Shown here: in pieces, positions 255 to 59,516 of the stretch
Layout: each line of letters opens with the position of its first letter
Position numbering within the stretch: position 1 is the stretch's first letter
NCBI RefSeq assembly: GCF_001699815.1
Contig: NZ_MCGB01000057.1
Coordinates: forward strand, 1 to 64,000
Source of the DNA: Ralstonia pickettii
Lineage (GTDB): Bacteria > Pseudomonadota > Gammaproteobacteria > Burkholderiales > Burkholderiaceae
Direction: 5' to 3'
DNA length: 64,000 bases
Notes under the pieces: generated by a model
Told to the model about the DNA's origin: nothing
Database searches by the model: none
Seen by the model: only the letters and a program-made list of their open reading frames with translations
Translations under genes and position numbers: made by a program

Positions 255-406
255 TCTTCTGTCTCCAGAGGGTCTGGCGGCGAGAGCATCCGGCGGCGGA
301 CACGCGGTGCCCGCAGGCTACCGCATCGTGCAGGCAAATGCACGTTGCGGAAAGTCTGTCAGGGCGGTGCCCAGCCGGAACGCAACCCGCGCGCCCGGCG
401 GCTCCG

Positions 407-3097
407 TTATACGGTCATCGGGTTGGGCTTGTTCGGATCGAGGTTGTACTTCTTCAGTGCCTCGGCCACCTTCTCGCGCGGCAGCACGCCTTCATCGGCG
501 AGCGCCTTGAGCGACGCAACCGTCACCCAGTAGCGATCCACCTCGAAGAAGTGACGCAGCTTCTCGCGGGTATCCGAGCGGCCGAAGCCGTCGGTGCCCA
601 GCACCACATAGCGACGCGGCACGAAGGCGCGGATCTGCTCGGCGAAAGTACGGACGTAGTCGGTCGAAGCGATGACCGGACCGCGTGCGTTCTTGAGGAG
701 CTTCTCGACGTGCGACTCGCGTTGCGGTGCCGTCGGGTTGAGCAGGTTCCAGCGCGCGATGGCGTTGCCTTCACGGGCCAGCTCGGTAAAGCTCGGGCAG
801 CCCCACAGGTCGGATTCCACGCCCCAGTCCTTCTTGAGCAGCTCGGCGGCGGCGATCACCTCGCGGAAGATCGTGCCCGAACCCAGCAGTTGCACGCGCG
901 GTGCGTTGCTGTTTTCGACGCCCTTCTTGAACTGGTACATCCCCTTGATGATGTCCGCCTCGACACCCGCCGGCATTTCCGGGTGCTCGTAGTTTTCGTT
1001 CATCACCGTCAGGTAGTAATAGACGTCTTCCTGCTCGACATACATGCGACGCAGGCCGTCTTGCATCACCACCGCCAGTTCGTACTGGAAGGTCGGGTCA
1101 TACGAGATGCAGTTCGGGATGGCAGCGTGGTACACGTGCGAGTGGCCGTCTTCGTGCTGCAGGCCTTCGCCGTTCAGCGTGGTACGGCCAGCTGTGCCGC
1201 CCAGCAGGAAGCCGCGCGAGCGCATGTCGCCGGCGGCCCAGCAGAGGTCGCCGATACGCTGGATGCCGAACATCGAGTAGTAGATGTAGAACGGGATCAT
1301 CGCCACGCCATGCGTCGAATACGACGTAGCGGCCGCGATCCAGTCGCACATGGCACCGGCTTCGTTGATGCCTTCCTGCAGCACCTGACCCGTCTGCGAT
1401 TCCTTGTAGAACATCAGTTGGTCGTGATCCTGCGGCACGTACTTCTGGCCTTCCTGGTTCCAGATACCCACCTGGCGGAACAGACCTTCCATGCCGAACG
1501 TACGCGACTCATCGGGCACGATGGGCACAACATGCTTACCGATGTTCTTGTCCTTCAGCAGGATGTTCAGAATGCGCACAAAGGCCATCGTCGTGGACAC
1601 TTCGCGGCCTTCACCGGTGGCTTTGAGCAACGCGTCGAACGCAGCCAGCGCGGGAATCTGCAGCGCGTCGGCCTTCTGGCGACGGGCCGGCAGGTAGCCG
1701 CCCAGGTCCATACGGGCCTTGCGCATGTATTCGAGTTCCTTCGAGCCTTCTTCGAACTTGACGTACGGCACGTGCTCGAGCTGGTCGTCGGCAACCGGAA
1801 TGTTGAAGCGATCACGCAGCTTGCGGATGGCGTCCACCGGCATCTTCTTCTGCTGGTGGGCGATGTTCATCGCTTCGCCGGCCTCACCCATGCCATAGCC
1901 CTTGATGGTCTTGGCGAGAATGACGGTCGGCTGACCCTTGTGGTTGGTCGCCGACTGGAATGCCGCGTAGATCTTGTGCGGATCATGGCCGCCACGGTTC
2001 AGCGCCCAGATGTCGTCGTCGGACCAATCGGCCACCATGGCCTTGAGTTCCGGCGTGTTGAAGAAGAACTCGCGCACATAAGCGCCGCTCTTCGATTTGA
2101 AGGTCTGGTACTCGCCGTCGACGCATTCCATCATGCGGCTCATCAGCAGGCCCTTCGTGTCGCGGGCAAGCAGCTGATCCCAGCGGCTGCCCCAGATGAC
2201 CTTGATGACGTTCCAGCCTGCGCCGCGGAATTCCGATTCCAGCTCCTGGATGATCTTGCCGTTGCCGCGCACCGGACCATCCAGGCGCTGCAGGTTGCAG
2301 TTGATCACGAAGACGAGGTTGTCCAGCTTTTCACGGCCGGCCATGCCAATCGCTCCCAGCGATTCCGGCTCGTCGGTTTCGCCGTCGCCCAGGAACGCCC
2401 AGACCTTGCGGTTTTCCCAGTTCTGGATCAGGCCGCGGCTGGCCAGGTACTTGGTAAAGCGCGCCTGGTAGATCGCCATGATCGGGCCCAGGCCCATCGA
2501 CACGGTCGGGAATTGCCAGAAATCCGGCATCAGCCACGGGTGCGGGTACGACGAGATGCCCTTGCCGTCGACTTCCTGGCGGAAGCTGTCGAGTTGCTCC
2601 TCGCTTAGACGGCCCAGCAGGAATGCGCGCGAGTACACGCCCGGCGCCGAGTGCCCCTGCACGAAAACCATGTCGCCGCCGTGCTTGTCCGACGGGGCGT
2701 GCCAGAAGTGGTTGTAGCCGACGTCATACAGCGTGGCCGCCGAAGCGAACGACGAGATATGCCCGCCGACGTTGGTGTCCTTGTTCGCGCGCAGCACCAT
2801 CGCCATGGCGTTCCAGCGCGTATACGAACGGATGCGATGCTCGATTTCCTGGTTGCCAGGAATGCGGTCCTGGTTCTCGACCGGGATCGTATTGATATAG
2901 GGGGTTTCTGCGTGCAGCGGAGACGTCACGCCGTTGATGCGCGCGTACTCGATCTGCTTGTCGAGGAGGAATGCCGCGCGCTGCGGGCCTTCCGCGCCGA
3001 TGACGCCTTGCAGCGCCTCCAGCCATTCCTTGGTTTCCTGGGGATCAACGTCGCTGGCGCTCGTGGCACCCAGGACTTGTTCTGGTACGGCCGACAT
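407..3097 (-). CDS. aceE: Pyruvate dehydrogenase E1 component, homodimeric type
   Basis: 896 residues, the usual size of a homodimeric E1. It decarboxylates pyruvate with thiamine diphosphate and acetylates the lipoyl groups of AceF. The ThDP motif GDGETDEPES is present, as are the family segments GHISSFASAATLYDVGYNHF and TAGRTTLNGEGLQHEDGHSH. The C-terminus reads LRHFFEVDRYWVTVASLKAL and continues to NPMTV. I chose the ATG at 3097 because AAGGAG sits 6-7 bases upstream; the frame is open for another 25 codons, but that extension looks non-coding. It is followed by aceF. A sensor kinase gene is divergent from it across a 313-bp gap. Confidence 0.97.
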   Translation of the reverse strand: MSAVPEQVLGATSASDVDPQETKEWLEALQGVIGAEGPQRAAFLLDKQIEYARINGVTSPLHAETPYINTIPVENQDRIPGNQEIEHRIRSYTRWNAMAMVLRANKDTNVGGHISSFASAATLYDVGYNHFWHAPSDKHGGDMVFVQGHSAPGVYSRAFLLGRLSEEQLDSFRQEVDGKGISSYPHPWLMPDFWQFPTVSMGLGPIMAIYQARFTKYLASRGLIQNWENRKVWAFLGDGETDEPESLGAIGMAGREKLDNLVFVINCNLQRLDGPVRGNGKIIQELESEFRGAGWNVIKVIWGSRWDQLLARDTKGLLMSRMMECVDGEYQTFKSKSGAYVREFFFNTPELKAMVADWSDDDIWALNRGGHDPHKIYAAFQSATNHKGQPTVILAKTIKGYGMGEAGEAMNIAHQQKKMPVDAIRKLRDRFNIPVADDQLEHVPYVKFEEGSKELEYMRKARMDLGGYLPARRQKADALQIPALAAFDALLKATGEGREVSTTMAFVRILNILLKDKNIGKHVVPIVPDESRTFGMEGLFRQVGIWNQEGQKYVPQDHDQLMFYKESQTGQVLQEGINEAGAMCDWIAAATSYSTHGVAMIPFYIYYSMFGIQRIGDLCWAAGDMRSRGFLLGGTAGRTTLNGEGLQHEDGHSHVYHAAIPNCISYDPTFQYELAVVMQDGLRRMYVEQEDVYYYLTVMNENYEHPEMPAGVEADIIKGMYQFKKGVENSNAPRVQLLGSGTIFREVIAAAELLKKDWGVESDLWGCPSFTELAREGNAIARWNLLNPTAPQRESHVEKLLKNARGPVIASTDYVRTFAEQIRAFVPRRYVVLGTDGFGRSDTREKLRHFFEVDRYWVTVASLKALADEGVLPREKVAEALKKYNLDPNKPNPMTV

Positions 3098-3410
3098 GGC
3101 GGTCTCCTTGGTAGCAGTAACGGTAGTTGCGTCTCTTGTGAGGCGCCCACTGGCACGCGCGTTCACACGCACGCAAGGGCCACCCCGACTTTTGCGCTGA
3201 TTCTATGGGCACCCGCAAACGCAGCACAAGCGGAATTTTCAAATTGCGATATGGTTTTTTATAATGTGGAATATTGCCGCGACGCAAAACAAATCACCTT
3301 TGACATTGCAGCGCAGCATTTTCCGAGCGAACAAGACACCTCACCAAGCGGTTTCCCCAAGCGACCCGCAGGTTGATTGCCGTTACACTTAGTTTTGCGC
3401 AGTTGCACAG
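3098..3410. promoter_or_regulatory. Divergent aceE / sensor-kinase control region with overlapping promoters
   Basis: This 313-bp gap has no gene. It contains an AT-rich island at 3230-3300 that stands out from the GC-rich surroundings. On the minus strand a candidate sigma70 promoter for aceE has -35 TTGCGT (3282-3287) and -10 TATAAA (3258-3263), 18 bases apart, giving a leader of about 150 nt. On the plus strand a perfect TATAAT (3260-3265) occupies almost the same bases and could serve the kinase gene, although its -35 is poor. The two -10 elements overlap, so transcription in the two directions may be mutually exclusive. This is inferred from sequence only. Confidence 0.5.
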
Positions 3411-57440: not shown

Positions 57441-57962
57441 CTACGCCACTGGCAGCTCCGTCGTCGACAGCACCTGCTTGAGCACCATGAACGTCCGGAT
57501 CTGCCGCACGCCCGGCAGATACAGCAGCTGTTCGGCGTGGAGCCGGTTGTAGCCTTCGTTGTCTTTCGTGCGCACGAGCATGAAGTAATCGAATTCGCCC
57601 GTCACGACGTGGCATTCCAGGCAACCGGGCACCTTCTGCACCGCTTTCTCAAATGCCGTGAACGATTCCGGCGTCGAGCGATCCAGCACGACGCCGATCA
57701 TCACCAGCGACCCCAGATCCAGCGCACGAGGATCGAGCAGCGCAACAATCCCCTTGATCAGCCCCAGCTCCTTGAGCCGTTCCACGCGGCGCAGGCAGGC
57801 CGGCGGGCTGAGGTTTACCTTGGCCGCGAGGGCCACGTTGGAGATAGACGCATCGCGCTGGAGCGCCCTGAGAATCGCGCGATCAGTGCGATCCAAGGCG
57901 TGGCGCGCAGAAGCCGCCGACGCGTCAGGGCGCTCCTGCAATTTTGTTTCGCTCTTTTTCAT
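57441..57962 (-). CDS. acdR: Lrp-family regulator of ACC deaminase (AcdR)
   Basis: 173 residues with a 20-residue polar N-terminal extension. The helix-turn-helix is LQRDASISNVALAAKVNLSP, followed by PACLRRVERLKELGLI; the RAM domain has GCLECHVVTGEFDYFMLVRT. It is divergent from acdS with 145 bp between the starts, the arrangement known for AcdR in other acdS-bearing bacteria, where it activates acdS in the presence of ACC. Assigned by family and context. Confidence 0.88.
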   Translation of the reverse strand: MKKSETKLQERPDASAASARHALDRTDRAILRALQRDASISNVALAAKVNLSPPACLRRVERLKELGLIKGIVALLDPRALDLGSLVMIGVVLDRSTPESFTAFEKAVQKVPGCLECHVVTGEFDYFMLVRTKDNEGYNRLHAEQLLYLPGVRQIRTFMVLKQVLSTTELPVA

Positions 57963-58107: not shown

Positions 58108-59124
58108 ATGAACCTGCAGCGATTTCCCCGCTATCCCCTGACGTTCGGCCCGACGCCCATCCAGCCGCTGAAACGATTGAGCGCGCACCTGGGCGGCAAG
58201 GTGGAGTTGTTTGCCAAGCGCGAAGACTGCAACAGCGGCCTGGCCTTCGGCGGCAATAAAACGCGCAAGCTGGAATACCTGATCCCGGAAGCGCTGGAAG
58301 GCGGGTACGACACGCTGGTGTCCATTGGCGGCATTCAGTCGAACCAGACGCGCCAGGTGGCCGCCGTGGCGGCGCACCTCGGTCTGAAGTGCGTGCTGGT
58401 GCAGGAAAACTGGGTGAACTACTCCGACGCCGTGTACGACCGCGTCGGCAATATCGAGATGTCGCGGATCATGGGCGCCGATGTGCGCCTCGATTCTGCG
58501 GGCTTCGACATCGGCATCCGGCCCAGTTGGGAGCAGGCCATGGACGACGTGCGCAAGCGCGGCGGCAAGCCGTTCCCGATTCCGGCCGGCTGCTCCGAAC
58601 ACCCGCTTGGCGGACTGGGCTTTGTGGGCTTTGCTGAGGAAGTGCGCCAGCAGGAAGCGGAGCTGGGCTTCAAGTTCGACTACATCGTGGTGTGCTCGGT
58701 CACGGGCAGCACGCAGGCCGGCATGGTCGTCGGCTTTGCGGCGGATGGCCGGGCCGATAAGGTGATCGGCATCGATGCCTCGGCCAAGCCGGAACAGACG
58801 CGCGCGCAGATTCTCCGCATTGCGCAGCACACCGCCGAGCTGGTCGACCTCGGCCGCAACATCACCGAAAGGGACGTGGTGCTCGACACGCGCTATGGCG
58901 GCCCGGAATACGGCCTGCCCAACGAAGGCACGCTTGAAGCGATTCGCCTGTGCGCGCGCCAGGAAGCCATGCTGACCGACCCGGTGTACGAGGGGAAATC
59001 CATGCACGGCATGATCGACATGGTGCGCAACGGTGAATTTCCTGCGGGCTCGCGCGTGCTCTACGCACATTTAGGCGGTGTGCCGGCACTCAACGCGTAC
59101 AGCTTCATCTTCCGCAACGGTTGA
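58108..59124 (+). CDS. acdS: 1-aminocyclopropane-1-carboxylate (ACC) deaminase
   Basis: 338 residues, the exact AcdS length. The residues that separate true ACC deaminase from D-cysteine desulfhydrase are all at their reference positions: PLP Lys51 (GGNKTRK), Ser78, Tyr294, Glu295 (DPVYEGK) and Leu322 (YAHLGG). It breaks ACC into 2-oxobutyrate and ammonia, which lets plant-associated bacteria lower host ethylene and use ACC as nitrogen. AAGGAG lies 8 bases before the ATG. Divergent acdR lies upstream, and an AceE-like relic begins on the last base of its stop codon (TGATG). Confidence 0.97.
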
Positions 59125-59516
59125 TGCGGCGCATCCAGGCGTTGCGCGAGTTCTTCGAGGTGGAGCGCGCCTCCATCGTCATCGCCGCACTGAAGACGCT
59201 GGCCGACGGCGGTGAACTGGAGTGCCCCAGATGCGCTGAGAAACCCTCAGTCACGAGGCATTTAGCTCGACGCGCGGAGATCGGAACTCGAGGGTTGAGG
59301 CTTTTTGCTCCGCGCCTCGAGCTTTTTACTCGGCGAGTCGAGCTTTTTACTCGGCGAGTCGAGCTTTTTACTCCGCGTGCCGAGCTTTTTGCTCCGCGTG
59401 CCGAGCTTTTTGCTCGGCGCTTGAGGATCAGAGCTCGGCCCACGGGGCTTTTTGCTCGACTGTCCGAACTTTTTGCCTCGCACGTCGCGGTTTGCCGTTG
59501 GCGCGTGGCGCACTGA
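59124..59516 (+). pseudogene. Relic of an AceE/MdeB-type 2-oxoacid dehydrogenase E1 C-terminus, running into repeats
   Basis: The frame opening on the last base of the acdS stop (TGATG) reads [20 protein letters not shown], then AALKTLADGGEL. Over 26 residues it aligns with the C-terminus of AceE in this same window (LRHFFEVDRYWVTVASLKAL, then ADEGVL) with 16 identities. After about residue 35 the similarity ends and the frame becomes Arg/Leu/Phe repeats encoded by the 21-bp array. The fragment is too short to be an enzyme. MdeB-type E1 proteins oxidise 2-oxobutyrate, the AcdS product, so a lost downstream gene is a sensible reading. It may still be translated by coupling. Confidence 0.72.
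59301..59489. repeat. Tandem array of 21-bp repeats with phased T5 tracts
   Basis: CTTTTT begins at 59301, 59322, 59343, 59364, 59385, 59406, 59448 and 59469, all in exact 21-bp register, with one degenerate unit at 59427. The units share the form CTTTTT(A/G)CTC(C/G)GCG. Because 21 is a multiple of three, every frame shows 7-residue repeats; the minus frame (SKKLGTR, SKKLDSP) has the best GC-ending codon use. One T5 tract per two helical turns could bend the DNA. No CRISPR-like spacer variation. Confidence 0.9.

Follow-up and report, generated by a model that had tools for sequence, protein, structure and literature searches.

The window analysed here is a stretch of 64,000 nucleotides from Ralstonia pickettii, and its features are listed in table 1. 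Its acdS gene is intact, with 653.5 bits against the ACC deaminase model TIGR01274 (cut-off 392), and the divergent ORF ahead of it encodes a putative Lrp/AsnC-type regulator, probably AcdR-like. Each of the 15 Ralstonia acdS loci compared (L109-L123) has a homologue of this regulator in the same divergent position.

The frame noticed in the first-pass annotation does open at the last base of the acdS stop codon, where TGA (59122-59124) and an ATG overlap as TGATG. The same overlap occurs ahead of the spacer in six of the seven Ralstonia loci with an intact E1 gene, and is incidental to the stub described below. Further downstream lies a 21-bp tandem array, whose unit resembles GAGCTTTTTGCTC and whose copy number varies among Ralstonia loci. 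Since the array is also present 3' of the E1 gene in five of the seven intact relatives, as judged by eye, it predates the deletion in the window. Two terminator-like matches were seen within the array (59300-59419).

Table 1. Coordinates of the features discussed, in the window and (last four rows) at Variovorax loci.
Feature	Position	Strand	Basis
aceE, housekeeping E1, comparison gene	407..3172	-	TIGR03186, 1262 bits, below cut-off of 1408
acdR-like divergent ORF, 173 aa, Lrp/AsnC-type regulator	57441..57962	-	ORF list
acdS, ACC deaminase, intact, 338 aa	58108..59124	+	TIGR01274, E=5.9e-197
acdS stop codon and residual acdS-E1 spacer, including ATG at 59124	59122..59134	+	alignment with seven intact loci
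Deletion junction 1, CCAGGCG	59135..59141	+	repeat comparison with intact relatives
27-codon E1 remnant (codons 849-875 of intact 899-codon gene)	59142..59222	+	alignment; TIGR03186, E=2.1e-6
E1 terminal codons and stop (TGA 59237-59239), out of frame	59222..59239	+	alignment with intact loci
21-bp tandem array, 5.7 copies	59300..59419	+	repeat analysis; alignment with intact loci
Variovorax E1 C-domain ORF	L041:9043-9471		
Variovorax E1 C-domain ORF	L073:9032-9457		
Variovorax E1 C-domain ORF	L169:1501-1929		
Variovorax E1 C-domain ORF	L171:1501-1926		

Remains of an E1 gene behind acdS

Both profile and alignment data indicate that the frame from 59124 contains what was once the C-terminus of an E1 of the homodimeric 2-oxoacid dehydrogenase type. 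In an NCBIfam scan, the 50-aa stub peptide matched TIGR03186 (E=2.1e-6) and TIGR00759 (E=6.4e-5), the sole two models up to E=10; a Pfam scan of the fragment gave no match. Local alignment with the AceE of the window yielded a score of 78, against a maximum of 44 in 2000 shuffles of the 43-aa peptide. The best non-stub tile from the six frames of the window (42 aa, one per 20 residues, stops as X, region 300-3200 excluded) scored 47. The first-pass annotation had seen an E1 remnant at 59124..59250, and a remnant it is, with homology limited to 59135-59222 plus an out-of-frame tail to 59239 that contains the old E1 stop. The codons ahead of about 59135 are residual intergenic spacer.

A search of the whole genome of the window with TIGR03186 returned three matches: the stub itself (59136-59228), aceE and, at another place, a partial match of 25 bits. 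None exceeds the cut-off; 27 codons are too short to reach this full-length threshold. Only these codons and the tail remain of 899, and the thiamine-diphosphate domains are absent, which rules out a functional acdS-linked E1 in the window.

The similarity to the C-terminus of AceE pointed out in the first-pass annotation is real, although it amounts to 15 of 26 residues and not 16, and it raises the question of whether recombination with the aceE gene of the window could have left the stub as a scar. The DNA tells otherwise: over the same 81 nt, aceE is identical to the stub at 51 positions (15 of 27 residues), whereas the intact E1 genes adjoining acdS in seven other Ralstonia are identical at 68-73 (22-24 of 27 residues). 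These seven sister genomes also carry the intact E1 at the very same place. The aceE gene is therefore rejected as the source by DNA identity and synteny, and an origin that the first-pass annotation had considered less likely is in practice excluded. Profile and synteny agree in assigning the stub to the TIGR03186 paralogues.

Intact genes in other Ralstonia and decay in the window

Among 16 Ralstonia genomes, one per species, acdS was found in 15, with at least 97% identity in 11 and 79-81% in four; the remaining genome (G004) has a distant match only (27%). An intact E1 gene of 899 codons lies 90-92 nt 3' of acdS in seven of the 11 genomes with near-identical acdS (G001, G003, G005, G006, G007, G011 and G015), in agreement with the former operon suspected in the first-pass annotation, and is missing from four, that of the window included. 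The seven encoded proteins score 1732-1745 bits against TIGR03186 (cut-off 1408). Values of omega between 0.046 and 0.108 over 21 pairs reveal purifying selection on the intact Ralstonia genes. Altogether, TIGR03186 members that pass the curated cut-off occur in eight of the 16 genomes. The eighth (G014) is placed 3' of a methionine gamma-lyase gene with a divergent Lrp-type gene, the three forming a row at L134:1538-6112, and the lyase exceeds the cut-offs of both NF005695 and TIGR01328.

Immediately 5' of the stub there is a piece of spacer, GGCGCATCC, shared with the intact loci. The motif CCGGGCG is present both in the spacer and in the 3' end region of E1 in four of the seven intact relatives (G015, G006, G005, G001), in the spacer only in G003 and G007, and in E1 only in G011; the window's own copy reads CCAGGCG. 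Where measured (G015, G005, G001), the two copies are 2604 nt apart, and breakpoint pairs with at least 7 nt of homology represent 0.10-0.20% of those in the tested region. The aligned sequences indicate a deletion of about 2.6 kb between the copies of this 7-nt direct repeat, the stub being the remaining 3' end of E1. Another deletion, of about 58 nt, removed most of the last E1 codons and left the old stop out of frame.

The stub has four codons that are not seen in any of the seven intact genes, and three of them alter an amino acid that is uniform across all seven. Nonsynonymous differences average 4.29 between stub and intact genes versus 1.90 among the intact genes, while synonymous differences are alike (5.71 and 6.52, respectively). 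The stub is a pseudogene relic with no function of its own.

The locus could also be read as a small ORF that is co-transcribed with acdS and functional, as a 131-aa frame (59121-59516) is open across the stub and the 21-bp array, its ATG overlaps the acdS stop, and Variovorax has a stand-alone E1 C-domain ORF behind acdS that appears to be under purifying selection (see below). However, much of the frame lies within the array, where each 21-bp unit is a whole number of codons, and the nonsynonymous excess in the stub speaks against such a role. Moreover, of the other E1-less Ralstonia, G013 has retained another piece (49-53 nt) and two (G008 and G009) have none above control, so we regard a functional ORF as very improbable.

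In our opinion, the stub is very probably the relic of a TIGR03186-paralogue E1 from a former acdR / acdS-E1 unit, with presumed loss of a 2-oxobutyrate outlet. The sister species retain this E1 at full length, and the stub is what the internal deletion of about 2.6 kb and that of about 58 nt left of its 3' end. The strain of the window would thereby have kept ACC deamination and lost its dedicated outlet for 2-oxobutyrate. The deletion is known from a single genome of this species; because seven sister genomes keep the gene whole, the stub can be read as marking a pathway step that has been lost.

The piece retained in G013 comes from the same E1 end and lies directly 3' of the acdS stop, with 40-46 identities and scores of 29-39 against 12 for the control. 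The junction is common to G008 and G009, where E1 scores of 12-17 do not clearly exceed the control (12-13). A single deletion common to all four E1-less Ralstonia is not supported, as three different junctions are found (window, G008 = G009, and G013). Trees of acdS, lrp and aceE leave the branching of the window's lineage unfixed: the concatenate groups it with G008/G009 (support 77), and the aceE tree alone places G008/G009 with G005 (78) and G003 (89). We therefore count at least two losses of E1 in Ralstonia, and probably three.

Distribution of the acdS-E1 linkage

We examined 80 named acdS loci, drawn from a larger list in which 538 relatives were matched. E1 was found directly 3' of acdS in six of them (L001, L002, L005, L006, L008, L022) and elsewhere in the fetched flank in ten, and a C-domain-only ORF was present in two (L041, L073). 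In 62 loci, some on short contigs and one of them that of G013 (L003), E1 was found by neither search. Short stubs elsewhere may go unseen, because the HMM search of the flanks misses the G013 remnant. The E1 adjoining acdS in Acidovorax sp. SUPP3334 (L006:4099-6706) is split over two frames, and a divergent E1 near acdS in Polaromonas sp. P2-4 (L023:3430-6064) over several, which reflects either decay or assembly error.

The family was sampled with 150 genomes, in which an E1 paralogue over the cut-off was found 53 times and acdS 71 times, the two together in 43. The paralogue is thus present in 43 of 71 genomes with acdS versus 10 of 79 without it (Fisher p=7e-10, an overstated value because the genomes are related). 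The two genes are less than 2 kb apart on the same strand in 14 of the 43, that is, in six Ralstonia, in three genomes with E1 downstream (G062, G135, G017) and in five with E1 upstream (G079, G117, G144, G124, G075). In the E1 tree, the seven linked genes of Ralstonia form one group (support 99), and those of Lampropedia, Paracidovorax and Paucibacter form another with G062, G135 and G017 (support 100). Linked genes of the upstream type lie in a third part, four of the five together (100) and that of G079 apart. The arrangement with acdS directly upstream of E1 occurs in Ralstonia, Lampropedia, Acidovorax, Paracidovorax and Paucibacter loci. A TctC-type solute-binding gene is found between acdS and E1 in G135 and G017 (L130 and L131; profile-tested in L130).

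Neighbouring genes were called by codon usage around 40 E1 loci (L124-L163) fetched from the family and G014. An Lrp-type gene is directly divergent from E1 in 26 of them, five being of the acdS-linked upstream type. In one locus methionine gamma-lyase stands between the Lrp-type gene and E1, in three acdS lies upstream of E1, and the other ten have neither. According to clustering, an E2 gene follows E1 in five loci (L136, L137, L138, L139, L162), four of which also have E3, and the L136 genes were profile-tested as TIGR01348 (E2) and TIGR01350 (E3). These five loci perhaps encode a complete extra 2-oxoacid dehydrogenase complex.

Outside the family, in the order of a Halomonas, TIGR03186 members over the cut-off were found in six of 293 genomes, and methionine gamma-lyase was absent from the 1.5-kb flanks of all six. 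From this set, L228-L250 were excluded as ordinary-AceE-like (closer to AceE and adjoining an E2 gene), and L227 lies just under the cut-off.

The C-domain-only ORFs belong to Variovorax, where an ORF of 142-143 codons lies 3' of acdS in four of 101 genomes (G152, G153, G156, G211), starting 10-25 nt past the acdS stop codon. The copies in the other three genomes share 71-94% identity with the G152 copy, the closest relative is the acdS-linked E1 of Lampropedia (41%), and the matches to a custom E1 profile span 719-866 in L041 and 722-857 in L073. The ORF is without the GTDGFGRSD motif, and a Pfam scan assigned it to no family. Over six pairs, omega ranges from 0.16 to 0.39, versus 0.02-0.08 for acdS. 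All four genomes carry a second E1 match elsewhere, in a frame of 890-912 codons, although the full-length match of G153 holds a stop. Judging from these values, and in contrast to the stub of the window, the Variovorax ORF appears to be a gene under selection, if a relaxed one. We can only speculate, and think it rather unlikely, that acdS-linked E1 genes erode repeatedly and that their remains can be recruited; the Variovorax C-domain would then be a selected small protein, translated from the acdS message, with the full-length E1 encoded elsewhere in the genome as its target, for example in a docking or inhibitory role.

A paralogue of AceE and its proposed role

Sequence comparison establishes the acdS-linked E1 as a paralogue family distinct from AceE (TIGR00759), at about 55% identity and within the same protein family. 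Six catalytic positions of E. coli AceE (106, 407, 522, 571, 599 and 640) are kept: His106, His407, Glu522, Glu571 and His640 are invariant across the 58 paralogues, and Tyr599 is present in 56, with Phe in the other two. The 58 paralogues are separated from AceE, represented by four Ralstonia sequences, by 63 alignment columns. Among these columns is that of Val192 in the FPTVSMG stretch (E. coli chain numbering), which is Gly in all 58. At Gly141, 54 paralogues have Pro and four have Ala. The two substitutions could possibly widen the pocket.

ACC deaminase and methionine gamma-lyase have a common product, 2-oxobutyrate. Because both partner enzymes make this compound, the most plausible role of the acdS-linked E1 is to oxidise it to propionyl-CoA. 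The proposal is based on genomic context, namely linkage to acdS in several clades, a methionine gamma-lyase neighbour in a single genome, and the Lrp-type genes nearby. A neighbouring enzyme that makes 2-oxobutyrate is present in the intact relatives; against the proposal, no acdS or Cys/Met-PLP homologue was recognised in 31 of the 40 fetched flanks, in a search confined to these two enzyme types. As for the acdS-mdeB operon cut down to a stub that the first-pass annotation proposed, the deletion of an E1 gene stands, and an MdeB-type role of this gene is suggested by its context.

It may be argued that the position next to acdS says nothing about the substrate and that the gene encodes a second pyruvate or 2-oxoglutarate dehydrogenase E1. 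NCBIfam indeed names TIGR03186 AKGDH_not_PDH, that is, alpha-ketoglutarate dehydrogenase, and the six catalytic positions checked are as in AceE, bar the two Tyr-to-Phe changes. Nevertheless, separate E1 clades are linked to acdS and another to methionine gamma-lyase, with 2-oxobutyrate as the shared product, and this context favours 2-oxobutyrate over the substrate in the family name. We therefore consider a second pyruvate or 2-oxoglutarate dehydrogenase rather unlikely.

The gene order of G014 is reminiscent of mdeRAB, the methionine catabolism cluster of Pseudomonas putida, with MdeB as its AceE-like E1: both combine an AceE-like E1, a gene for a PLP enzyme that makes 2-oxobutyrate and an Lrp-type regulator. 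The locus of the window differs in that acdS is the partner and the E1 gene has been deleted to a stub. Compared with the acdR-acdS cluster, the divergent Lrp-type regulator and acdS are alike; E1 as a third gene is the difference, unseen in the literature searched.

In an intact unit, AcdS would open ACC to 2-oxobutyrate and ammonia, E1 would convert 2-oxobutyrate to propionyl-CoA with the E2 and E3 of the pyruvate dehydrogenase complex, and propionyl-CoA would enter the methylcitrate cycle. We found prpB in all 16 Ralstonia genomes and prpD in five; as prpD was not found in the other 11, which include that of the window, methylcitrate dehydratase would be another one there.

Among the matches listed by full-text searches, no title or opening of an abstract mentions an acdS-E1 unit, most of the subscription literature lying outside the scope of these searches. 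The main text of PMC4563596 leaves the 2-oxobutyrate from ACC deaminase at 'further metabolised', and that of PMC4048297 names no dehydrogenase for 2-oxobutyrate; the word dehydrogenase is absent from the main text of both.

The acdS-E1 unit thus provides a concrete candidate gene for the step after ACC deaminase. It also suggests that TIGR03186, labelled as alpha-ketoglutarate dehydrogenase, may be misnamed. The E1 step was lost repeatedly and acdS was retained, and for this reason ACC deamination and full use of ACC carbon may be separate traits.
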